DNA of 64,000 nucleotides from Edaphobacter flagellatus (GTDB taxonomy: Bacteria > Acidobacteriota > Terriglobia > Terriglobales > Acidobacteriaceae): the NCBI RefSeq assembly GCF_025264665.1, contig NZ_CP073697.1:3100001-3164000 (forward strand), written 5' to 3'. Positions 2,381 to 19,286 of this stretch are shown in pieces. Positions within the stretch are counted from its first letter, which is position 1, and the number at the start of each line of letters is the position of its first letter. A model generated the notes under the pieces. That model was not told where the DNA came from, did not search any database, and saw only the letters and a list, made by a program, of their open reading frames with translations. Both the position numbers and the translations under genes were made by a program.

Positions 2381-5284
2381 CTACCAGCGAACCGCAAGGC
2401 CGAACTGCACAATGCGCGCTTCCAGCACCGATCCACGAGTGATCGTTGGCGTGCCGATCGAGGTTCCAATCGGGCCCAGTGGCGAATTGCCTGCCTGCAC
2501 GATGGCTTGTACAGGCGAAAGGGTTGTAACGTTCGTGTGGTTGAAGAGGTTGTTCGCCTCGAGGAGGAACGAAGGCGCGATGCGATCAAACAGCTTCGGG
2601 AAGGTCCTCGTGTAACGCCCATCGAACTGGTAAACATTCGGGGACCGCAACGAATTTCTTCCTACGTACAGCGGGCGTGTAACCGAGGCAACCGACGAGT
2701 CGCCATTGATAGAGACATTGGTGATGATGTTCTGCTGATCGCCCGAGCTGACGTTCGCCAGCAGCGCGACCATGTTGTGATTAGCCAATGTATTTAGGAA
2801 TCCATGGCTCAGGCTGAACGTCGGTTCCATGACCGCCGTCAGGTTGAAGGCATTCGGATGATTGACGATGCTGTTGCCACGATCGCGCTTCCGGTTCGTC
2901 GTATCCATGATCGCAACGCTCTGCTCGAAGGTATTTACCTCTGGAGCATCGGAGATCGAATGTGACCATGTGTAGTTGGCATTGATCTGAATGCCGTGAG
3001 CCAGTGACCGCGTATAGTTCAGCACCAACGCATTGAAGCTCGTGTTCGCACCCGACTCTACCTGGTTAATCTGATTGAATCGAGTATCCAGACGGGTCGA
3101 AGCATTAGCCGCTGAGCTGAAAACAGGACGTCCGTCTGCCAGTTGCCCAGTCGGATTGATGGGGTTGATATTGTGCAGGTACATGAGGTTGCGGCCATTC
3201 GCCAGAATGTAGCCGATCATGAATGTGTCATAGCGGCTGAACTCGTGCGAGAGCTGCAAGGTTGCATTCCACGTGTACTCGTTCTTGAACTTCGGCGAAA
3301 TCGTCGTCACGTTCTGAAGTGACGTCGCGCCGGCGGCGGGAATATTGGGAAAGGCAAGTGTTCCAGTGGTTGCACCCGCCGGTTGCGTAATCGTAAAGCT
3401 GTTGACGCGATTCGATCCATCCAGGTTGAGCGCATTAAACCAGAGGTTCGTCGGCGTGGATTGATAGAAGACACCGCCCGAAGCCTTAAGAACAGTGTGG
3501 TCGTCTAGGCGATAGGTCACACCAACGCGAGGCGCGAAGTTAAGGCTCGGCGTATTGAAGCTTCTCGAGTTGATAAAAGGAGCATTCGGATTTGATTGCG
3601 GTCCTTTGAAGCGGTCATAGCGGCCGCCATAGACCAGCAAAAGCTTCGGCGTTACCTGCCAGGTATCCTGCACGTAGGCTCCGAAGAAGAGCGAAGCATA
3701 ACCGATGCCGGTGAGATCCTGCTGGCTGCGGAACTGGCTGTATCCGTAAGGATTGGTTCCGTTCTTAGCTGCGAGGTAAGACGCGAGAGACGTGAACGTA
3801 TATTCGTTGAAGCTGACCAGCCGCTGACGGTTGATTAACTCTGCAAGACTGAACCCGCCTTTGATCGTATGAGCTCCGCGAATATAGGTAACGTTGTCGC
3901 TTCCGCTTGGAACTTTATCGGTGTACTGATCGCCAGCATTGCTGGATGCTCCAATATTGGCCACACCGGAGATAACAATGGCAGGATCGGCGCCTGCCGA
4001 TGGCCCACGGAAGTGCGTGTTGTTACGAAATGGCCATGAGAAGCGAAGCTCATTCAGTAGATGATCATTGACGGTTGATGTCAGCTGAGCGCCGATGACA
4101 TGAGCGCGATCCAGAAAGTCTGCCGCTGTGCTGCGTGCATTCAGGCCGCCAACCTGTGTGTTGAAGGGAAAGTTGTTCTTGAAGTAGTTGTAACGAACAA
4201 ACATTGAGTTCTTGCTATTGATTGTCCAGTCGCCTCGTCCTGTGGCGAAGTTACCATGTAGCATGCCAGGAGTTGCACTGACCTGATCAGGAGATAACCC
4301 CAGAGCAGCAACGTTTGCTGCGGTAATGGTAACTGGCGCAGGTTGTCCGCGCGTCACATGCTCGTATGCGCCAAAGAAGAACAGCTTATCCTTGATGATC
4401 TTTCCGCCAGCGTTTACAGCGAAATCCTGGAGTTGTAGATTCGGCTTTGCCTGTGACTTGTTCGCGAAGAATGGATATGCTGTTGCATCCTGCCAGCGGC
4501 GAATCCACTGAAACATGCCGTGATAGCTGTTCGTGCCGTTGTTCGAGATCACGTTATAAACGTCGCCCGAGGTCCAGCCATACTCCGGGTTGAAGCTGTT
4601 CGAGACTGTCTGTACTTCCTTCAGAAAGCTGTCGGCAATGGGAAACAAACGCAGACCAATGCGGTCACTCTCCGTATTCACCATACCGTCCATCTGGTAG
4701 TTGATACGGTCCAGAAGTCCATTGGTGTTCAGCGTACGCGGAATACCAAGCTCCGGGTTCGGATGGCCGCTCACGCCAGGCTGAAAAAGGATGAAGTTGT
4801 AGGGGTTCCTCGAGGTCAGAGGAAGATTCTCGATCTCGCGGCTATCCAGCGTGCGCTGTACGCTCAACGTAGTCGGATCGATGTTCGTAATCGTTGCGCT
4901 TACATCGATCTGCTCCGATGCATTGCCAACCTTCAGAGAAGGATCAAGCACGGCTTCTTTACCGGCCGTCAGAATAATCTGATCGAAGCGTGCCGTCGAA
5001 AAACCATCCTTGCTCACCGAGACGCTATACGTTCCCAGCGGAAGGTTCACCAGCACAAAGTAGCCATTGCCTTCCGACACGATCGTGCGGGCAAAGCCAA
5101 GCTCGGCATTGGTTACGGTTATGCTGGCATTTGGAATGGCAGCTCCGCTCGCATCGGTCACTTGACCGCGAATGGTGCCGTTGATGGACTGCGATTGACT
5201 CCACGATGGGAGTGTTGTCACGAAACCTGGGAGCGCTGCAAGCAGCGCGGCGCTAAGGAGAGAAGAACGAAGACGGGTCAACAA
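2381..5284 (-). CDS. Oar-type TonB-dependent receptor with carboxypeptidase-regulatory-like domain
   Basis: Outer-membrane receptor of about 967 residues. A signal peptide (about 1-32, ending at SQSQS) is followed by a carboxypeptidase-regulatory-like Ig domain (about 36-110: GTIRGQVTDASGAAIPNA, GNGYFVLVNLPLGTYSVSV), a plug-like region (NLPLTSRNPYNFILFQPGVS, NYQMDGMVN) and a beta-barrel ending in an aromatic residue (ARIVQFGLAVRW), as barrel proteins do. Initiation is at a TTG with an excellent AGGAGG seven bases upstream; no ATG fits better. The neighbouring ROK regulator, PIG-L protein and SIS deaminase suggest uptake of an amino-sugar-containing glycan, but the ligand is inferred only from context. 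An imperfect inverted repeat lies about 60-80 bp upstream of the start. Confidence 0.9.
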   Translation of the reverse strand: MLTRLRSSLLSAALLAALPGFVTTLPSWSQSQSINGTIRGQVTDASGAAIPNASITVTNAELGFARTIVSEGNGYFVLVNLPLGTYSVSVSKDGFSTARFDQIILTAGKEAVLDPSLKVGNASEQIDVSATITNIDPTTLSVQRTLDSREIENLPLTSRNPYNFILFQPGVSGHPNPELGIPRTLNTNGLLDRINYQMDGMVNTESDRIGLRLFPIADSFLKEVQTVSNSFNPEYGWTSGDVYNVISNNGTNSYHGMFQWIRRWQDATAYPFFANKSQAKPNLQLQDFAVNAGGKIIKDKLFFFGAYEHVTRGQPAPVTITAANVAALGLSPDQVSATPGMLHGNFATGRGDWTINSKNSMFVRYNYFKNNFPFNTQVGGLNARSTAADFLDRAHVIGAQLTSTVNDHLLNELRFSWPFRNNTHFRGPSAGADPAIVISGVANIGASSNAGDQYTDKVPSGSDNVTYIRGAHTIKGGFSLAELINRQRLVSFNEYTFTSLASYLAAKNGTNPYGYSQFRSQQDLTGIGYASLFFGAYVQDTWQVTPKLLLVYGGRYDRFKGPQSNPNAPFINSRSFNTPSLNFAPRVGVTYRLDDHTVLKASGGVFYQSTPTNLWFNALNLDGSNRVNSFTITQPAGATTGTLAFPNIPAAGATSLQNVTTISPKFKNEYTWNATLQLSHEFSRYDTFMIGYILANGRNLMYLHNINPINPTGQLADGRPVFSSAANASTRLDTRFNQINQVESGANTSFNALVLNYTRSLAHGIQINANYTWSHSISDAPEVNTFEQSVAIMDTTNRKRDRGNSIVNHPNAFNLTAVMEPTFSLSHGFLNTLANHNMVALLANVSSGDQQNIITNVSINGDSSVASVTRPLYVGRNSLRSPNVYQFDGRYTRTFPKLFDRIAPSFLLEANNLFNHTNVTTLSPVQAIVQAGNSPLGPIGTSIGTPTITRGSVLEARIVQFGLAVRW

Positions 5285-10015: not shown

Positions 10016-11143
10016 ATGACCACTCCAGCACGCAACTTCCCCCACGCCATGATCCGCGAGATCTTCGAGCAGCCCGCGGCCATCTCCCAGACCCTCGCCG
10101 CGTACGCCGATGGCACCAGTCTTCGTGAGGATGTCTTCCTCGCCGCCCGTCAGGCGCTCGTCGGCCGCGACTCCATTCTTATCTCGGCCTCTGGCTCCAG
10201 CCGCCACGCCGGCCTCTCCGGCGAGATCCTCTTCGAAGACCTCGCTGGCATCGCTGTCGACGTCGAATACGCCAGCGAGTACATCTATCGCTCCACGCAG
10301 ACGCTCAGAAATCCCTGCTTCGTCGTCATCTCGCAATCCGGCGAGACCGCCGACACCTCCGAGGCTCTCCGCGAGGCGATTGCCCGCGGCTCCTCCACCA
10401 TCGCGATCACCAACAAGCCTGAATCCTCGATGGCCAAACTCGCTGGATGTTCGCTGCCCACCTACGCCGGGATCGAGCGCGCCGTGCCCGCTACCAAAAG
10501 CTTTACCACGCAGCTCGTCGTCCTCCAGTTGCTTGCTCTCTACGCGGCACGCATCCGTGGCCGTATGACGCGCGCCGTCGTCGAATCGCACCTCGCGCAT
10601 CTCTACCAGGTTCCCGCCGCGCTTGAGGCCGTGCTCCCGCGCTGGGAAAAGCAGGTCGCCCAGCTCGCCGACACCTTGCAAACCTCCGAGACCTTCCTCT
10701 TCCTTGGCCGCGGCGTCCACTATCCCATCGCCCGCGAAGGCGCGCTCAAGCTTAAGGAATCCGCCTACATTCAGGCCGAGGGCTACCCCACCGGCGAGCT
10801 CAAGCACGGCCCTAACGCGCTCGTCAGCCGCCACAATCCGCTCATCGCACTGGCCACCTGCGATCCTTCCTCACCCGACTCCGTCCTGCGTTATGAGAAG
10901 ACCTTCAACCTCGTTCGCGACATGAACAAACAGGGAGCCGATATCATCTCCATCGTCAACGAGGGCGACACCCGCGTCGCCGGACTCAGCCGTGTTGCTA
11001 TCGAAGTTCCGAAGGCCGCCGAGTTCATCTCCCCGTTGTATGAAGTCGTGCCGCTCCAGCTCCTCGCCTACTTCATGGCCATCGCCCGCCATATCGATGT
11101 CGACAACCCCCGCAATCTCGTAAAAGCCGTCGTCCAGGAGTAA
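10016..11143 (+). CDS. SIS-domain glucosamine-6-phosphate deaminase/isomerase (NagB-II type)
   Basis: 375 residues corresponding to the isomerase half of GlmS without its glutaminase domain. It begins with MIREIFEQP, as the GlmS isomerase half does, carries the SIS phosphosugar motifs SASGSSRHAG and VISQSGETADT, a second SIS domain (FLFLGRGVHYPIAREGALKLKESAYIQAEGYPTGELKHGP), and ends VDNPRNLVKAV like GlmS. Lacking the Cys1 amidotransferase, such proteins usually run in the deaminating direction (glucosamine-6-P to fructose-6-P plus ammonia), so it probably feeds amino sugars to glycolysis. This agrees with the ROK regulator and deacetylase-like gene upstream. A related AgaS/frlB-like activity is possible. 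Confidence 0.87.
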   Translation: MTTPARNFPHAMIREIFEQPAAISQTLAAYADGTSLREDVFLAARQALVGRDSILISASGSSRHAGLSGEILFEDLAGIAVDVEYASEYIYRSTQTLRNPCFVVISQSGETADTSEALREAIARGSSTIAITNKPESSMAKLAGCSLPTYAGIERAVPATKSFTTQLVVLQLLALYAARIRGRMTRAVVESHLAHLYQVPAALEAVLPRWEKQVAQLADTLQTSETFLFLGRGVHYPIAREGALKLKESAYIQAEGYPTGELKHGPNALVSRHNPLIALATCDPSSPDSVLRYEKTFNLVRDMNKQGADIISIVNEGDTRVAGLSRVAIEVPKAAEFISPLYEVVPLQLLAYFMAIARHIDVDNPRNLVKAVVQE

Positions 11144-11167
11144 TCGCAGGGGCACTCTTCAAGGGGT

Positions 11168-11202
11168 GTCATTCCGAGCGAAGTCGAGGAACCCCCGCAT
11201 TT
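11168..11202. repeat. Dispersed GTCATTCCGAGCGA repeat, copy 1
   Basis: Starts GTCATTCCGAGCGAAGTCGA and ends in CCCCCGCATTT. A second copy is at 20847-20890 with the same ends but a longer centre, and a diverged relative lies near 9808. All are intergenic. Confidence 0.6.
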
Positions 11203-11231
11203 CTCATCCCGGTCACGAATGCATACAAAAA

Positions 11232-11265
11232 GCCCACACCTCCAAACCTGAGATGTGGGCCTTTT
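11232..11265. terminator. Bidirectional terminator between convergent genes
   Basis: Arms GCCCACA (11232-11238) and TGTGGGC (11254-11260), extended by two more pairs around a mismatch, flanked by A5 on the left and TTTT on the right. It sits between the stops of the SIS gene (+) and glpF (-), so it can serve both. Confidence 0.8.
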
Positions 11266-11285
11266 GCATCTACACCACCAGAGAG

Positions 11286-12029
11286 CTACGCCATCCCCAA
11301 CCCGCGAATCGCCGCCACAGCCAACGCCGCACCAATCACGGGCCCCAGCACCGGCACCCACGCATACTTCCAACCTGAATCACCCTTCCCCGTGATTGGC
11401 AGAATGGCATGGGCGATGCGCGGACCTAGATCGCGCGCAGGATTGATCGCATAGCCCGTCGTCCCGCCCAGCGATAGCCCGATACCCCATACCAGCGCAC
11501 CTACCAGCACCGGCCCCAGCCCAGGAGCAACGCCCGCCGGAGCGATTCGCTTCGAGAACAACGCCGTCGCCACCAGCACCAGCACAAACGTGCCGATGAT
11601 CTCGCTCAGCAGATTCCACCCCGGGCTGTAAACCGCAGGAGCCGTGCAGAAGCAGCCTAGCTTCGCATCCTTATCCTCCGTCAACTCCCAATGCGGCCTG
11701 TAGTGCAGCCACACGGCAATGCCTCCACACAACGCGCCAAGCACCTGCGCCGGAATGTAATAGAGCAGTCGCTCCGCATGACCGGTCATCATCACCGAAG
11801 CCACCGTGAATGCCGGGTTCAAATGCCCGTCCGCATCGCCCAGCGCCGCGCTCACCGCGACACCGGCAAACACCGCAATCGCCCATCCGGCCGTGATCGA
11901 AATCCATCCGGCATTCTCGGCCTTCGACTTCTTCAGCAACGCGCCCGCAACCACACCGTTGCCCAGCACGATCAACACAAACGTGCCGACAAACTCACCC
12001 ATCACAGCCGCAAGAGAAGGACTAACCAT
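11286..12029 (-). CDS. glpF: Glycerol uptake facilitator (MIP/aquaporin family)
   Basis: Inner-membrane channel of 247 residues. Both NPA half-helix motifs are present: HLNPAFT (first) and INPARDLGPR (second). The Asp after the second NPAR is the hallmark of glycerol-conducting GlpF rather than water-only aquaporins. Six hydrophobic helices can be seen. It is the last gene of the glpK-glpD-glpF run, 12 bp after glpD, which supports glycerol as substrate. A terminator hairpin follows at 11232-11265. Confidence 0.93.
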   Translation of the reverse strand: MVSPSLAAVMGEFVGTFVLIVLGNGVVAGALLKKSKAENAGWISITAGWAIAVFAGVAVSAALGDADGHLNPAFTVASVMMTGHAERLLYYIPAQVLGALCGGIAVWLHYRPHWELTEDKDAKLGCFCTAPAVYSPGWNLLSEIIGTFVLVLVATALFSKRIAPAGVAPGLGPVLVGALVWGIGLSLGGTTGYAINPARDLGPRIAHAILPITGKGDSGWKYAWVPVLGPVIGAALAVAAIRGLGMA

Positions 12030-12041
12030 AGACTCGAACCC

Positions 12042-13601
12042 TCACATACCCTCGTACACATATCCGCGAGCAACTGCGGTAAACATCGCAAGATCGCGCG
12101 CCTTCCATTCCTCGCTGCGGCCCAGTTCACGCGCCAGTATATCGGCAACCTTCGGTGCGGCCTCAATCGCAGCACGCGAATCCAGAAACAGCGCCCGCGT
12201 CCGTCGCGCCAGCACATCCTCCACCGTCCGAGCCATCTCATGCCGCGCAGCCCACACAACCTCACGCGCCCGGTAGGGGAGCCGCGGATGCAGCAGCTCA
12301 TTCAGCGAAGCATCCTCTTCCGAAAACTTCACGATCTCCGGCAGATCCGACCCATACACACGCTCCGACTCAACCGGAGCTACCTCACGCGTCCAGCCAT
12401 GCAGATGCAGCGCCCGCGTCCGCGAGGGCTCTTTCTTCAGTCCCGCTACAGCGGCGGCTTTATTGATCGTGTCCTCACCCATGCGTCGATACGTTGTCCA
12501 CTTGCCGCCTGTCACCGTAACCAGTCCCGTCGGCGAAACGATGATCGTGTGATCGCGCGACAGCTTCGACGTCGCTCCACCGCCCTTGCGTACCAGCGGC
12601 CGCAGTCCCGACCACATGCTCCGTATCTCCTCGCGCTCCGGGCGCCGGCCAAGATATTTGCCAATGTGATCCAGCAGAAAGCTGCGTTCCTTCTCCATCA
12701 TGTGCGGCTCGACAGAGGCATGATCCACAGCCTCATCCGTTGTGCCGACAACCGTTGCTCTATGCCACGGAATCGCAAACAGAACGCGGCCATCCGATGT
12801 CTTAGGAATCATCATCGCGCGGTCCCCAGGCAGGAAATCGCGCGGCAGAACAAAGTGCGATCCCTGACTCACCGACAGCAACGTCTCGTTGTCCTTGTCC
12901 ATCTTCAGAATATTTTCGGTAAAGACACCCGTCGCATTGATCGTCACCTTCGCACGAAGATCGAACGTCTCCCCGCTCTCGATATCACGCGCACGGACAC
13001 CTGCTGTCCTGCCGTTTCTTTCAATCAATCCGGCCGCTTCGACGTAGTTGATCGCAACCCCGCCAAGGCCCTCAAGCGTTCGCATCAGCGAAACCGCATA
13101 GCGCGAATCGTCAAACTGCCCATCGTGATACAGCACGCCACCACGCAGTCCATCCGACTTCACGCCTTTCAGCATCGCCAGCGTCTTCTCGCGCGAAAGC
13201 ATCTTCGAAGCGCCAAATGAAAGCTTGCCCGAGAGCAGCTCATACACCTTCAGCCCAAAGCCGTAGTAAGGAAGCCCGACCAGATCGTAGACCGGCACAA
13301 CAAACGACAAATTGTGGACGATGTGCGGAGCGTTCTCCAACATATGCCCGCGCTCCTGCAGAGCATCCAGGACCAGCGTGATGTTCATCTGCTCCAGGTA
13401 GCGCACCCCGCCGTGCACCAGCTTCGTGCTGCGGCTCGATGTCCCCTTGGCAAAATCCGCGCGTTCGATCAACGCCGTCTTATACCCACGCGAGGCAGCC
13501 TCAACCGCGGCGCCCAGCCCGGTTGCACCGCCGCCAATCACCAGCACGTCCCACTCTGCCTGTGCCCCCAGCCTGCGCAAAATCTCAGCGCGATCACTCA
13601 A
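12042..13601 (-). CDS. glpD: FAD-dependent glycerol-3-phosphate dehydrogenase
   Basis: 519 residues. It oxidises glycerol-3-phosphate to dihydroxyacetone phosphate, passing electrons to quinone at the inner membrane. The N-terminal Rossmann motif [27 protein letters not shown] binds [20 protein letters not shown] is the family signature; [16 protein letters not shown] lies in the C-terminal half. Its start ATG overlaps the glpK stop by four bases (13598-13601), so translation is coupled. Same operon as glpK and glpF. Confidence 0.96.
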
Positions 13602-15100
13602 GCTTGCTTCTCCTCTTCACGCGCCCAGTCGCCCGCGCGCTCCAACGCTCTGCGCCACGTCGCGCGAACCTTATCGCGATCGCGCGCCTCCATTGCGGGT
13701 TTAAAGACGCGATCCATCTGCCACTGTCGCGCAATCGTGTCCTTATCGGGCCAGTATCCGACAGCAAGTCCCGCAAGATATGCTGCCCCAAACACCGTCG
13801 CCTCCGCATTCTTCGGACGCACCACTTCAATGCCCAGCACATCCGACTGAATTTGCATCAGCATATTGTTGGCAGCGGCTCCGCCATCCACGCGAAGCTG
13901 CGCCAGCGGCAATCCCGAATCCGCCTGCATCGCTTCCAGTACATCGGTGGCCTGCAGCGCAATCCCTTCCAGCGCCGCACGCGCAATATGCGCCCGCGAC
14001 GTCCCGCGTGTAAGCCCCAGCAGCGATCCCCGCGCATAGGGGTCCCAGTGCGGAGCGCCAAGCCCCGCAAACGCAGGTACCAGCACGACGCCATTCGAGC
14101 TCGTCACCGTAGCTGCCAGCTGCTCCACCTCGGCCGAGGTACGAATCATCTGCAGCTCATCACGCAGCCACTGCACCACGGCACCCGCCATCAGCATGCT
14201 GCCCTCAAGCGCATACTCCACCGTGTCGCCAATCTTCCACGCTACCGTCGTCAGCAGACGATTCTTCGAGGCCACCGGCTTCGTGCCCGTATTCAGCAGC
14301 ATGAAGGCGCCCGTGCCATACGTGCACTTCGCCATCCCCGCCGACGTACACATCTGTCCAAACAGAGCCGCCTGTTGATCGCCAGCAATTCCGGCAATCG
14401 GCACACCCTGAAGCAAACCGCTCGTCGTTCCGCACACGCCGCTCGAAGCCACCACCTCCGGCAGCATCGAATGCGGCACGCCCAGCAGCTTCAGCAGCTC
14501 CTCATCCCACGCCATCGTGTGGATGTTGAACAGCATCGTGCGCGAAGCATTCGTCGCGTCCGTAACGTGCCGCGCGCCGTTCGTCAGCTTCCAGATCAGC
14601 CAGCTATCCACCGTGCCAAAGGCCAGCTTGCCTGCTTCTGCCTTCGCCCAAGCGCCATCGACATTCGCAAGAATCCAGTTCACCTTGCTGCCCGAAAAAT
14701 ACGCATCCGGAATCAGCCCCGTCTTCTGCTGGATAGCACTGCCCGCTTCCGCGCGCAGCCGGTCGCAAAACTCCGCCGTCCTCCGGTCCTGCCACACAAT
14801 CGCGTTGTAGACCGGCTCGCCCGTCTCACGGTCCCACACAATCGTCGTCTCGCGCTGGTTCGTAATGCCGATCGCGGCAATCGCGCGGTCCGTCAGGTCG
14901 GCCTTCGCCAACGCCTCGCTGGCCACGCCGCTTTGCGACGACCATATCTCCGTCGGCGAGTGCTCCACCCACCCCGGCTTCGGAAAGATCTGTTTAAACG
15001 GATGCTGCGCAATCGAAATGACGGCTCCGCTTTCATCCACAACCATCGCCCTTGAGCTGGTCGTGCCCTGATCGAGCGCAAGAATATATCGCTTCGCCAC
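13598..15100 (-). CDS. glpK: Glycerol kinase
   Basis: 500-residue FGGY kinase that makes glycerol-3-phosphate from glycerol and ATP. Motifs: [17 protein letters not shown] at the N-terminus, [37 protein letters not shown], and the C-terminal ATPase signature [20 protein letters not shown]. The start codon is GTG at 15100-15098 with GAGGAG about ten bases upstream. A leader of roughly 270 bases, containing a terminator-like structure, separates it from a sigma70-type promoter, and the antiterminator-like gene glpP lies upstream. Confidence 0.97.
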
Positions 15101-15267
15101 TAGAAAGTTCTCCTCGTCTTCGCACTGAGAGTCATCACGCCAGTCTGCTGCTCAACCTCGAGCCACTTTACAGCAACTGCCCATACGTGTGAGCCCGCAG
15201 TTGCTGCACGTCGTAGAGGACCGTCGAATGCGTTGAAGTTCATCGTTTCCATCCCTCCATAGAGCAC

Positions 15268-15346
15268 AAAAAGCCGTCCCCGCTCCACAACAACAGACAA
15301 AGCATTCATCGCTGAATGCTGCCGGTTATTCCAGATCGGGGACGGC
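15268..15346 (-). promoter_or_regulatory. Terminator-like leader structure upstream of glpK (candidate GlpP target)
   Basis: On the minus strand, arm GCCGTCCCCG (15346-15337) and arm CGGGGACGGC (15282-15273) form a perfect ten-base stem immediately followed by TTTTT (15272-15268). The 54-base interior holds a second perfect hairpin, AGCATTCA with TGAATGCT (15301-15320). It begins about 25 bases after the predicted transcription start and lies 170 bases before the GTG of glpK. This is the layout expected of a leader terminator released by the GlpP antiterminator, whose gene is next door. Confidence 0.72.
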
Positions 15347-15376
15347 TCGTCTCTAGGCTAATGCCGTACGCTATGG

Positions 15377-15405
15377 ACACTAACAAGCCGCCAAAGCCTT
15401 GTCAA
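15377..15405 (-). promoter_or_regulatory. Sigma70-type promoter for glpKDF
   Basis: On the minus strand, -35 TTGACA (15405-15400), a 17-base spacer and -10 TAGTGT (15382-15377). The predicted start of transcription is near 15370, in the gap between glpP and glpK. Confidence 0.7.
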
Positions 15406-15429
15406 ACCATAACCGGATCTCTTCTGTCG

Positions 15430-16032
15430 CTAAACCACCCAAAGCCCCGGCCGGCTCAGCGACACTGCATCGACACCAGCCTGCACAAGGCTCTCCACCT
15501 GCTTCAGGTCGCTGATCAATCCACCCGCAATCACCTTCAACGTGGGATGCGCCTCGCGAATGCTGTCGAGAACCACCGGCGCCGCAATCGCTGGCAGCAG
15601 TTCAACGGCATCCGGCTGAAAGTGAGCAAGAAATCGCTTGGCCCCTTCGACTGCCGCCGAGTCGATCATGAAGGTTCGCAGCACCGTAATCAGGCCGTGG
15701 GTGCGCGCCGCCTGCAGCGTTCCATGATGCGTCGAGATAATGCCTGAAGCGTCGCAGTGCGCCAGATACTCCACCGCATACGCATCGCGGGAAAATCCCT
15801 GCAACAGATCCGCATTCACCAGAAGAAGTTTCTTGCGCGAGCGCGCAGCCGCAATCATCCGCTCAAGATTCATCGGATTGCCAAACAGCAGATAGACAAG
15901 GCGCACCGGAGAAGCCAGCGCACTCTCCAGCGTCTCCTCGCTGCGAACCGCAGCAATGACCGGAGACTCCTTCAGCGCCTCATCCCAAAGCGCCTTATCG
16001 CGCACAGGCTTGTTCGTCTTCTTTTCCAGCAT
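15430..16032 (-). CDS. glpP: GlpP-family glycerol-3-phosphate-responsive antiterminator
   Basis: 200 residues, close to the size of Bacillus GlpP, a TIM-barrel-like RNA-binding protein that, with glycerol-3-phosphate, lets transcription pass leader terminators of glp genes. Family-typical stretches: LLLVNADLLQGFSRDAYAVEYL, ASGIISTHHGTLQAA, TFMIDSAAVEGAKRF, VELLPAIAAPVVLDSI and VIAGGLISDLKQVESL with SLSRPGLW at the end. The gene lies directly upstream of the glpK promoter and its terminator-like leader, as expected. GAGGAG directly abuts the chosen ATG, which is poor spacing, so the start is not certain. It follows the M2 peptidase gene by 24 bp and may be transcribed with it. Confidence 0.85.
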   Translation of the reverse strand: MLEKKTNKPVRDKALWDEALKESPVIAAVRSEETLESALASPVRLVYLLFGNPMNLERMIAAARSRKKLLLVNADLLQGFSRDAYAVEYLAHCDASGIISTHHGTLQAARTHGLITVLRTFMIDSAAVEGAKRFLAHFQPDAVELLPAIAAPVVLDSIREAHPTLKVIAGGLISDLKQVESLVQAGVDAVSLSRPGLWVV

Positions 16033-16056
16033 CTCCTCAATCCATTCAGCCGGTGG

Positions 16057-17910
16057 TCAACGCTTTGGAGCAGTCCAGCCCGTCGTCACATGGTTGGCTT
16101 CGTTCTGCTGCTTCAGCCAAGTGTACAGAGGAGCGAAGTACTCCAGCATCGGACCTGCATCCAGGTGGTCCTCGCCCGTCATCGCCTTCAGCGTCTCCTG
16201 CCAGGGCTTCGACTGCCCGGCCTCCAGCATCGCATTCAGCTTCGCGCCCGCCTCCTTGCTTCCGTAGAAGCTGCAGCGGTTCAGCGGCCCTTTATAGCCC
16301 GAGGCATCGCACATCGCCTTGTAGAACTGGAACTGATAAATCCTCGCCAGGAAGTAGCGCGCATACGGCACATTGCCCGGGATATGGTATTTCGCACCCG
16401 GATCGAAGTTTGTTTCATCGCGTTCCGTCGGCGGAGCCACGCCCTGATACTTCTCTCGCAGCGCCCACCACGCCTTGTTGTAATCGGCAGGCTTCGTCTC
16501 ACCGCTGAACACCTGCCACCGCCACTTGTCGATCAGCAGGCCGAACGGAAGAAACGCAATCTTGTCCAGCGCCGTGCGCAGCTGCAGCGGAATATCCGCC
16601 TCAACCGGCGGAGCTTCATCGATCAGCTTCAACTTCTTTAGGTAGTCCGGCGTGATCGAAAGCGCAATCGCATCGCCGATCGCCTCATGAAATCCATCAT
16701 TCGCACCGTTGCGGAACAGGAACGGCTGCTTGCGGTATGCCCGCTGATAGAAGTTGTGCCCTTCCTCGTGATGCACCGTCGTGAAGTTATCCGCATCCAC
16801 CTTAATGCACATCTTGATGCGCAGGTCCTGATCGTTGTCCACATCCCACGCGCTGGCATGGCACACCACATCGCGGTCGCGCGGTTTGATGAACTGCGAA
16901 CGTTCCCAGAACGTTGCAGGCAGCGGCTCCAGTCCAAGCGAAGTAAAGAAGCCCTCCCCATACCGCGCCATCTTCTTCCCGGCTTCCAGCTCCGTCACCG
17001 GCCCGATCTGCTGCTTCAGCGCAGCCTCCAGGTCGTACATCTTGTAATTGCCCGTCGGCTCCGGAGCAACGATGTCATAGATGTTTCCCCACTCCTGCGC
17101 CCACATATTGCCCAGCAGGTAGGCAGGAATCATCCCATCCGGCCGCTCCGCCGCCGCGCCGTACTTCTGAATCAGCTTGAACCGCACATACGCATGCAGC
17201 TCTTTGTACAACGGCTCAAGCTGCGTCCACGTGCGCTCCAGCTCCGCCGAAAACTGCGCCGGAGTCATGTCGTACCCAGAGCGCCACAGATCGCCCGTGT
17301 CCTTGAACCCGAACTCTTTCGCGCCCTGGTTCGACAGCTCCACCAGCCGCGCATACTTCTCCCGCATCGGCGGCGAGATTCTGTGCCAGCCCTCCCACAA
17401 CTGCTGCAGCTCCTTCGGGTCGCGCGACTTCGCCATCAGCACATCCAGCTGCTCAATCCCTAGGCAGTCCTCGCCGGTCTTCCCCGCAGGGCAATACTTC
17501 CCCTTGCCATACATGCCATCCAGCGACGTACCCAGCTGCGTCAGCTCGGCCACCAGCTTCGGGTCCGTCGGTGAACCATTCAGCCGCAGCAGCATAAACT
17601 TGCGCGCCATCTCCGGCGGAAGCTTCATGCCGTTGAAGCGTCGAGAAGCGATCACGATCTCATTCGTCTTCGTCAACAGCCGCTCATTCGCCTTCGCCGC
17701 CAGAGCCTCTGTGTCGTCCGTGATGTAGGTCTCCTGCACCCACGCCGCCCGTTGCGCCTCATTCGACAACGCCAGCAGCTCTGCTTCAGCATGCTCAAGA
17801 AAAACCCCAGCCTCCGCCACCGTCGGCGGGCCAGCAGGAGCGGGCGAGTGAGTCTGCGCAGCGACAACCGCGCTCAAAGCGAAAACCGGCAACATCCATG
17901 AAAGCTTCAT
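16057..17910 (-). CDS. M2-family metallopeptidase (peptidyl-dipeptidase A-like)
   Basis: 617 residues with a signal peptide (about 1-18, ending AVVAAQT), so it is probably periplasmic or secreted. It belongs to the angiotensin-converting-enzyme family of zinc dipeptidyl carboxypeptidases. The zinc motif HEEGH is at 381-385 and the third ligand is Glu409 in GFHEAIGD; both are intact. DRDVVCHASAWDVDND and GEGFFTSLGLEPLP are also family-like. Two cysteines (PAGKTGEDC region) may form a disulfide. It may release dipeptides for nutrition. It reads away from the GH28 gene and toward glpP. Confidence 0.92.
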   Translation of the reverse strand: MKLSWMLPVFALSAVVAAQTHSPAPAGPPTVAEAGVFLEHAEAELLALSNEAQRAAWVQETYITDDTEALAAKANERLLTKTNEIVIASRRFNGMKLPPEMARKFMLLRLNGSPTDPKLVAELTQLGTSLDGMYGKGKYCPAGKTGEDCLGIEQLDVLMAKSRDPKELQQLWEGWHRISPPMREKYARLVELSNQGAKEFGFKDTGDLWRSGYDMTPAQFSAELERTWTQLEPLYKELHAYVRFKLIQKYGAAAERPDGMIPAYLLGNMWAQEWGNIYDIVAPEPTGNYKMYDLEAALKQQIGPVTELEAGKKMARYGEGFFTSLGLEPLPATFWERSQFIKPRDRDVVCHASAWDVDNDQDLRIKMCIKVDADNFTTVHHEEGHNFYQRAYRKQPFLFRNGANDGFHEAIGDAIALSITPDYLKKLKLIDEAPPVEADIPLQLRTALDKIAFLPFGLLIDKWRWQVFSGETKPADYNKAWWALREKYQGVAPPTERDETNFDPGAKYHIPGNVPYARYFLARIYQFQFYKAMCDASGYKGPLNRCSFYGSKEAGAKLNAMLEAGQSKPWQETLKAMTGEDHLDAGPMLEYFAPLYTWLKQQNEANHVTTGWTAPKR

Positions 17911-17965
17911 GGCCGGAGTTTACCGAAATGCAGGCACCTATGTTCTTTGCGGCCATATTTCTAAA

Positions 17966-17976
17966 TGGTCATACCA
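17966..17976. promoter_or_regulatory. Palindrome upstream of GH28 gene (candidate operator)
   Basis: TGGT (17966-17969), three bases, ACCA (17973-17976), within AATGGTCATACCAAT. It resembles the TGGTATACCA-type sites bound by GntR-family hexuronate regulators (ExuR/UxuR). A TAATAT box follows at 17985-17990. It is placed 50 bp before the polygalacturonase start. Confidence 0.4.
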
Positions 17977-18026
17977 ATCTCGTGTAATATCTCGCTGAAC
18001 AGCCAGGAAGCACGGAGAAGCAAGTT

Positions 18027-19286
18027 ATGACCCGTCCCATCTCTCTATCGCTCGTCATCCTCTTCGCATCAGTAACTCTCCCCGCAAGCGCGAAGGTCTG
18101 CGACGCCATAGCCTACGGAGCCAAACCCGACGGCGCGACGAAAAACACCACCGCCATCCAGCACGCCATCGACGACTGCGCCTCAGCAGGCGGAACCGTC
18201 AAGCTCTCCGGCGGCACCTTCCTCTCCGGCCCCATCGTCCTCAAATCCAACGTCACCCTCGACCTCGCCAGGGACACCACCCTCCTCGGCTCACCCGACC
18301 ACGCCGACTACCCGAAGAAGACCGAATTCCGCGCCCCCGGCACGCAGTCACTCGTCAGCGCCACCAGCGCCGAAAACATCGCCATCACCGGCTCCGGCAC
18401 CATCGACGGCAACGGCGAATCCTGGTGGGCCGAAGCCCGCAAGACCAAAAACGCCGGAGTCGTCGGCGCCGTCGACTTCCGCCCGCGCCTCGTCGTCTTC
18501 GATCACTGCAAACATGTCCGCATCGAAGGCATCACCATCCAGAACTCGCCCTCCTGGCAGGTCGTGCCTTACTACACCGACGACACCGTCATCCGCAACG
18601 TCCGCATTCTCGCGCCCGAGCACTCGCCCAACACCGACGCCATCGATCCCTTCAGCTCCTCCAACATGGTCATCGACCATGTCCTCGCCGATGTCGGCGA
18701 CGACAACATCGCCATCAAGAGCGGCATCATCAACTCGCCTGGCCCCGACGCGCCCAGCACCAACATCACCATCACCGACTGCGAATTCCTCCACGGCCAC
18801 GGCCTCTCCATCGGCTCCGAGATCGCCGGCGGCGCCAACAACATCCACGCCGAGCGCATCCACTTCAAGGGCACCGACCAGGGCATCCGCATCAAAGCCA
18901 ACCGCGACCGCGGCAACCAGGTCTACAACATCAGCTTCAAAGACATCTCCATGGAGGACGTCAAAACCTCCATCCTCATCAGCGAGTACTACCCCAAAGT
19001 GCTCCCCGAAGGAGACGTAGCCGCCGCGCCCATCACGCGCCTCACGCCCTTCTTCCACAACATCAAAATCGAGAATGTGAACTCCGTTAAAAGTGGAACC
19101 GCAGGCATCATCGTCGGCCTTCCCGAATCTCCCGTCAAAGACGTCATCCTCAAAAACATCAACATCACCGCACAAAAGGGAATGACCATCGCCTACGCCA
19201 ACGTCGCCGCCTCCGACGTGCACCTCATCATCGCCAACGGAGAAGCCATCACCAAAGGCGCAGCCGCCAACATTGACATCAAGTAA
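18027..19286 (+). CDS. Secreted glycoside hydrolase family 28 (polygalacturonase-like)
   Basis: 419 residues with a signal peptide (about 1-22, ending LPASA). It forms a right-handed parallel beta-helix that hydrolyses galacturonan or rhamnogalacturonan in pectin. GH28 active-site motifs appear in order: NTDAID (NTD), GDDNIAIKSG (DD), GHGLSIGSE (GHG) and GIRIKAN (RIK). GGAG ten bases upstream supports the ATG. With the rhamnose and xylose genes elsewhere in the window it supports pectin and plant-polysaccharide use. No other pectin genes adjoin it. Confidence 0.94.
   Translation: MTRPISLSLVILFASVTLPASAKVCDAIAYGAKPDGATKNTTAIQHAIDDCASAGGTVKLSGGTFLSGPIVLKSNVTLDLARDTTLLGSPDHADYPKKTEFRAPGTQSLVSATSAENIAITGSGTIDGNGESWWAEARKTKNAGVVGAVDFRPRLVVFDHCKHVRIEGITIQNSPSWQVVPYYTDDTVIRNVRILAPEHSPNTDAIDPFSSSNMVIDHVLADVGDDNIAIKSGIINSPGPDAPSTNITITDCEFLHGHGLSIGSEIAGGANNIHAERIHFKGTDQGIRIKANRDRGNQVYNISFKDISMEDVKTSILISEYYPKVLPEGDVAAAPITRLTPFFHNIKIENVNSVKSGTAGIIVGLPESPVKDVILKNINITAQKGMTIAYANVAASDVHLIIANGEAITKGAAANIDIK

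Follow-up and report, generated by a model that had tools for sequence, protein, structure and literature searches.

GlpP is a long-known antiterminator, and the primary papers on its binding and on the glpD leader are reportedly those of Glatz (1996, 1998). In the portions of the sources consulted, the three Bacillus subtilis promoters of glpD, glpFK and glpTQ are described as having a GlpP binding site and a terminator in the 5' UTR, with no induction in strains without glpP (PMC9604022), and the binding of GlpP to an antiterminator is mentioned (PMC7430163). A Thermotoga maritima study by its own statement left the GlpP regulon out of its comparative genomics (PMC3750489), while the "GlpP" of another paper is part of a transporter name (PMC11542873). 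The open-access literature on GlpP, in the portions consulted, gives no sequence for its RNA target, and within that scope, which the Glatz papers lie outside, we recognised no paper with the repeat element described below or with GlpP control in acidobacteria. GlpP antitermination is thus the part already known, and the candidate novelties from our sequence comparison are a repeat element shared between phyla and acidobacterial GlpP control.

The window (the whole stretch of DNA analysed, 64,000 nucleotides) carries on its minus strand, in this order, a Peptidase_M2 gene, glpP, a leader, glpK, glpD and glpF:

17910-16057, minus strand: Peptidase_M2 gene, first in the order and followed by glpP
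15430-16032, minus strand: glpP, 200 aa, glycerol-3-phosphate responsive antiterminator (Pfam PF04309)
13598-15100, minus strand: glpK, glycerol kinase with a GTG start (TIGR01311, 708.9 bits, cut-off 590.35)
12042-13601, minus strand: glpD-like glycerol-3-phosphate dehydrogenase/oxidase (PF01266, PF16901)
11286-12029, minus strand: glpF-like MIP channel (PF00230, 122.7 bits)

There are 329 intergenic bases between glpP and glpK, whereas glpK and glpD overlap by 4 bases and glpD and glpF are 12 bases apart on the same strand. NCBIfam GlpD models matched the window glpD below their cut-offs. The description of glpP as GlpP-like in an initial annotation of this DNA is borne out, the product falling inside the PF04309 family with a match over the full domain (model positions 1–173 of 173, E 1.1e-50, 171.9 bits against a cut-off of 27). 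No model was matched in an NCBIfam search, and a phmmer search against PDB returned 3kts_A (4e-23) and 1vkf_A (1.9e-12), structures named glycerol uptake operon antiterminator or related.

In the window's family, Acidobacteriaceae, GlpP is uncommon and scattered (28 of 398 genomes), and a draw of 396 genomes from the phylum yielded nine matches above the Pfam cut-off, all within this family, and three weaker ones. A tree of 53 GlpP proteins, midpoint-rooted and with several long branches flagged, separates acidobacterial from Bacillota sequences (support 100/99) and groups the window protein with those of L005, L008, L010, L006 and L018 (99/96). Two proteobacterial MAG sequences fall within the acidobacterial side; these come from contigs titled Proteobacteria MAG (L044, L046) that carry glpP, leader and glpK in a row with a GlpP inside the acidobacterial clade, which would reflect either horizontal transfer or wrong binning.

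Two features define the leader:

15377-15405, minus strand: promoter P1, TTGACA (15405-15400), a 17-base spacer and TAGTGT (15382-15377), read directly
15268-15348, minus strand: intrinsic terminator of the leader, a 12-pair base stem with a structured interior and a U run (15272-15268), from reading and folding

The TTGACA-N17-TAGTGT motif is present beside glpP as initially annotated, just after the glpP stop. A promoter scan of 11000-18100 listed no promoter, and TAGTGT matches TATAAT at 3 of 6 positions, a weak -10 box below the scanner's threshold; the leaders of L005, L010 and L006 have TTGACA followed 17–18 bases further by a TACnnT box. With a promoter motif and an intrinsic terminator before a glp gene beside glpP, the window has one part of the make-up expected of a GlpP-controlled leader. 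The terminator hairpin, GAGCCGUCCCCG...CGGGGACGGCUU(UUU) at 15348-15268, is formed by 12 consecutive pairs, of which the outermost is G-U, and folds at -49.0 kcal/mol (z -8.5, none of 200 shuffles as good); the perfect ten-base stem ending in a T run that was reported earlier is thus contained in the longer stem and its U run at 15272-15268.

The second perfect hairpin that had been noticed in the interior, AGCATTCA-GCGA-TGAATGCT at 15320-15301, also exists; folding places it at the tip of a single continuous rod that contains small internal loops. It was suggested at the time that this nested hairpin might be the GlpP recognition element, and a folded interior was indeed found in all 12 leaders tested (z -2.3 to -8.5; 12 of the 14 aligned below, two near-duplicates being left out). 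However, the interior varies from 24 to 73 bases among leaders (24–28 in some) and has no shared sequence, while the segment that is conserved, with a purine loop, lies upstream of the interior. Since the interior folds everywhere without a common sequence, the nested hairpin is best read as the tip of the rod and no conserved recognition site, and the suggestion that GlpP recognizes it is very improbable. Between the terminator and glpK lies a frame of 50 codons (15252-15100), the stop codon of which, TAG, shares its G with the GTG start of glpK; it was considered as a leader peptide and set aside, the leaders of G096 and G010 reading differently there in an informal comparison.

The conserved upstream segment comprises three features:

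15363-15367, minus strand: ACGGC, 5' arm of the proposed antiterminator, pairing with columns 15346-15342
15350-15354, minus strand: AGAGA, the one purine repeat left in the loop (15362-15347) that GlpP is proposed to recognize, from alignment A3 and the Bacilli repeats
15346-15342, minus strand: GCCGT, 5' arm of the terminator, shared with the proposed antiterminator

Alignment A3 contains 14 leaders, 12 of them acidobacterial and two from proteobacterial MAGs, which align with small variations as CGG(C/U)-loop-GCCG(C/U)CCC...GGG(G/A)CGGC-UUUU. It supplies the comparison of glpP-linked leaders that had been proposed as a check, and the terminator does recur in it with matched changes: its 9-pair helix is 98.4% paired, and four of the nine pairs have changed on both sides. 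Neither the covariation score nor the paired-cell count was equalled in 500 shuffles, but 38 of the 500 had as many doubly changed pairs, and 471 of the 500 as many types of pair. What is conserved upstream is a purine loop ending in (A/G)GAGA and enclosed as CGGC-(purine loop)-GCCG. Because a second copy of the terminator's 3' arm lies next to the loop, the hairpin that encloses it and the terminator are mutually exclusive. The arms of this proposed antiterminator pair in 68 of 70 cells (97.1%) across the 14 leaders, and the stem hardly varies among them, with no covariation signal beyond that of shuffles. Folded alone, the window hairpin is no better than shuffles in two cuts (z 0.60 and -0.39), and those of L005 and L044 reach z about -2.

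Two covariance models were used to examine how closely this element follows glpP. The R1 model (E ≤ 1e-5) matched 11 of 28 family genomes with glpP and none of 28 without it, a comparison that is circular on the glpP-positive side because all 11 genomes had supplied training sequences; R2 was therefore built, leaving out the window and its two closest glpK siblings. At E ≤ 1e-3, R2 matches 18 of the 28 glpP-positive genomes, nine of which gave training sequences, and thus nine of 19 untrained glpP-positive genomes compared to none of 36 glpP-negative ones; by eye seven of these nine look genuine and two (G067, G777) resemble ordinary terminators. The other ten glpP-positive genomes, that of the window included, have no match at this threshold. 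The best match among glpP-negative genomes has E 1.5e-3, and E ≤ 0.1 is reached in 18 of the 36, for which reason weak R2 scores are to be taken as noise. Besides the window site (E 0.0036, 27.2 bits), R2 finds nothing at E ≤ 0.1 in the 4.45 Mb genome, but the score of this site falls within this noise range and the case for it therefore rests on its position and its siblings.

Genomes that lack glpP do not generally lack glpK, which is present in 33 of the 36 glpP-negative genomes. In 20 glpK loci from glpP-negative genomes R1 found no match at E ≤ 1, and the recurrence of the glpP-linked leader in relatives, together with the element's absence from these 20 loci, supports the initial annotation of GlpP antitermination control. 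Six of the 20 do carry, in the 450 bases preceding glpK, a terminator-like hairpin that lacks the element, and a hairpin in this position is therefore not telling by itself; the loose pattern CGGY-N8-18-GCCG occurs in five, without a purine loop. Four glpP-less relatives (L221, L223, L224, L228) keep an otherwise identical neighbourhood in which the peptidase gene directly precedes glpK, with no glpP match between them, and for this reason glpP, promoter and leader seem, at the level of sequence, to behave as one cassette that is gained or lost together.

One further feature lies between the terminator and glpK:

15159-15171, minus strand: GTAAAGTGGCTCG box, kept before glpK whether or not glpP is present

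An exact copy of these 13 bases is found at a single place in the window, past the terminator (15171-15159), and G096 and G010 have them too. Among the four glpP-less relatives with the peptidase–glpK order, three (L221, L223, L228) have the box with one mismatch, 56–79 bases before glpK, and L224 has it with four mismatches. It is possible that the box is a second, maybe older glpK promoter downstream of the terminator, in which case the switch would add to it and would not govern the whole run. The earlier proposal that one switch governs glpK-glpD-glpF is thus doubtful, since a box that is conserved before glpK in some glpP-less relatives lies past the terminator here. This box, and the terminator-like hairpins in six of the 20 glpP-less loci, could also be explained if the window hairpin simply terminated glpP and glpK were driven mainly from its own promoter at GTAAAGTGGCTCG. 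We consider this improbable, as several relatives have TTGACA-type promoters between glpP and the hairpin, and the element also stands at sites not next to glpP, in front of glpD and of genes for receptors and surface proteins.

We regard it as highly likely that the leader is a protein-controlled transcription attenuator, in which GlpP lifts the terminator before glpKDF. The basis for this is the gene order, the family membership of GlpP, the terminator, the conserved mutually exclusive arms and the absence of the element where glpP is absent. By analogy with the work on Bacillus, we infer that GlpP binds the window RNA and that glycerol-3-phosphate is the signal, and the conserved arms lead us to favour an antiterminator hairpin rather than plain steric blocking. 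RNA polymerase starting at P1 would soon make ACGGC, the purine loop and GCCGU. With no inducer, the stable GCCGUCCCC/GGGGACGGC rod and the U run would form and transcription would stop before glpK. Once glycerol is phosphorylated, GlpP with glycerol-3-phosphate would bind the purine loop, including its AGAGA repeat, and would hold the ACGGC/GCCGU hairpin or simply cover the junction; the 5' arm of the terminator would then be kept from pairing and glpKDF would be read.

The same arrangement is found well beyond the family. Rfam at gathering score gave no match in the window or in 10 glpP loci, and most of the hairpins from our first broad structure scans were due to chance. Neighbourhoods of glpP from a genome-collection search and from Bacilli contain a small purine-loop hairpin whose 3' arm opens the terminator, for example GCGGC-AGAGAAUGAGAGAA-GCCGC in the proteobacterial MAG contigs L044 and L046, UGGGG-UAGAGAUAAGGAGAA-CCCCA in L048, GGGC-CGGAGAUGAUGAGA-GCCC in L055 (Alicyclobacillaceae), CCUU-UGAGACGAGAGAGU-AAGG in Lachnospiraceae and Clostridium loci, and UAAUGG-GGAGACACGGAGAU-CCAUUA in L084. 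The stems vary by group (GCGGC/GCCGC, TGGGG/CCCCA, GGGC/GCCC, CCTT/AAGG, AATGG/CCATT, GGTC/GACC) while the loop is kept, typically as GGAGA-N3/4-GGAGA in Bacilli. Compared with the Bacilli type, the window has one repeat, abutting the terminator arm, and the other, first repeat is degenerate (AUUAGCC).

In 30 Bacilli loci, repeat pairs number 16 in 15,000 bases downstream of glpP compared to one in 196,134 bases elsewhere, and 15 of the 30 have no repeat pair in the stretch searched downstream of glpP. To these were added 25 of 40 further loci, the other 15 being left out as no GlpP frame was found, and a repeat pair was present in 10 of the 25. The sole criterion for choosing elements was a pair of (A/G)GAGA repeats no more than 500 bases downstream of glpP, which gave 24 distinct elements from 26 instances, a set that includes a second L086 instance resembling a ribosome-binding site and the doubtful L094. 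In 20 of the 24 a terminator of at least nine pairs begins at the repeat, compared to 3.1 expected from shuffled downstream sequence, and their flanks pair better with their own partners than with swapped ones (4 of 20,000 permutations as good). An earlier swap test on 39 distinct of 40 elements gave 0 of 20,000, but this set includes elements found by pairing and the repeat-only set is therefore the fairer test.

In Bacilli the terminator arm starts inside the second repeat (AGA-UCCAC...GUGGA-UCU) and many stems have just 3–4 pairs. Together with the weakness of the window hairpin when folded alone, these short stems make steric blocking the main rival to the antiterminator reading: GlpP would cover the purine repeats and the start of the terminator 5' arm, no antiterminator hairpin would be needed, and the 5' copy of CGGC would be incidental or a docking aid. 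We think this unlikely, though clearly less so than the other alternatives, since the 5' arm, a copy of the terminator's 3' arm, is retained in 97.1% of cells and the stems change in a matched way between phyla, albeit with one set partly chosen for pairing. Comparison with distant bacteria suggests which short RNA motif is read by GlpP.

Within the family the element precedes genes of several kinds. It lies before glpK-glpD-glpF in the window, G096 and G010, and before glpD in G026, G186, G524 and, with a weaker score, G354. In G354, G573 and G705 it precedes large outer-membrane receptor-type proteins with OMP_b-brl_4 and CarboxypepD_reg domains; the domain scan covered these three, and the frame behind the element in G734 has the same length and a similar start. 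It also precedes choice-of-anchor X domain proteins, with NF041940 above cut-off in all four scanned (G354, G573, G716, G096) and a lamin-tail match above cut-off in G573 only. One G354 locus (L138) contains three R1 matches to the element; its consecutive genes are glpP, a pair of outer-membrane receptor genes, glpD and then a gene for a phosphocholine-specific phospholipase C (TIGR03396). In three genomes of genus g18 (L203, L205, L120) a variant leader was seen, as CGCGGAAAAAGACTAAGAGAAATCCACCGCC in L205, and its product in L120 has CarboxypepD_reg and Plug domains.

The element is further found before an MFS-like transporter gene in G740, G291, G330 and G661 (loci among L151 and L196-L199), the G740 transporter belonging to TIGR00897 (RbtT/DalT/CsbX). 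A second GlpP type was observed in L142 (G716) beside an RbtT-type transporter, two FGGY kinases, a phosphatase and a 2-hydroxyacid dehydrogenase. This second GlpP type, or the transporter-linked element, may answer to another polyol phosphate. In L151 (G291) the element ACGGC-AGAGATCAGAGA-GCCGT (4534-4607) stands before a type I phosphodiesterase gene (PF01663), the frame of which runs into glpP, and this suggests an autoregulated glpP operon.

We lean, with little more than even confidence, towards a general reading in which a single RNA element is recognized by the GlpP proteins of Bacillota and Acidobacteriota as well as by those of some proteobacterial MAGs: a pair of (A/G)GAGA-like repeats in the loop of a short hairpin, the 3' arm of which doubles as the 5' arm of the terminator. 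In Acidobacteriaceae this element would have been mobile as a cassette of glpP and leader, and would have spread to genes for outer-membrane receptors and surface proteins and to an operon with an RbtT-type polyol transporter and FGGY kinases, associated with a paralogue of GlpP that may sense another polyol phosphate. A short element common to distant phyla, with a named loop, would make GlpP recognition directly testable and allow prediction of GlpP regulons, and it draws attention to paralogues of GlpP for which the signal may be a polyol phosphate other than glycerol-3-phosphate.

The window resembles the GlpP system of Bacillus subtilis in having a GlpP-family protein, a promoter and a leader with an inherent terminator before glycerol genes, but differs from it in its GC-rich stem, long-rod terminator, degenerate first purine repeat and the order glpK-glpD-glpF. 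In antiterminators of the RAT type (SacY/LicT/BglG) a protein stabilises a hairpin that has its 3' arm in common with the 5' arm of the terminator, and the hairpin proposed for the window shares this property. TRAP acts on short purine repeats beside a terminator, and the proteins and signals of HutP and TRAP differ from those of GlpP. The RAT-type proteins form a family unrelated to GlpP, and the target of LicT, which according to the part of the source consulted recognizes a pair of bulges together with the groove that separates them (PMC7430163), is not a loop of purine repeats. HutP, in the same portion of that source, recognizes NAG repeats (PMC7430163); the GlpP element is like those of HutP and TRAP in placing short purine repeats next to a terminator, but unlike them it has just two GGAGA-like repeats.
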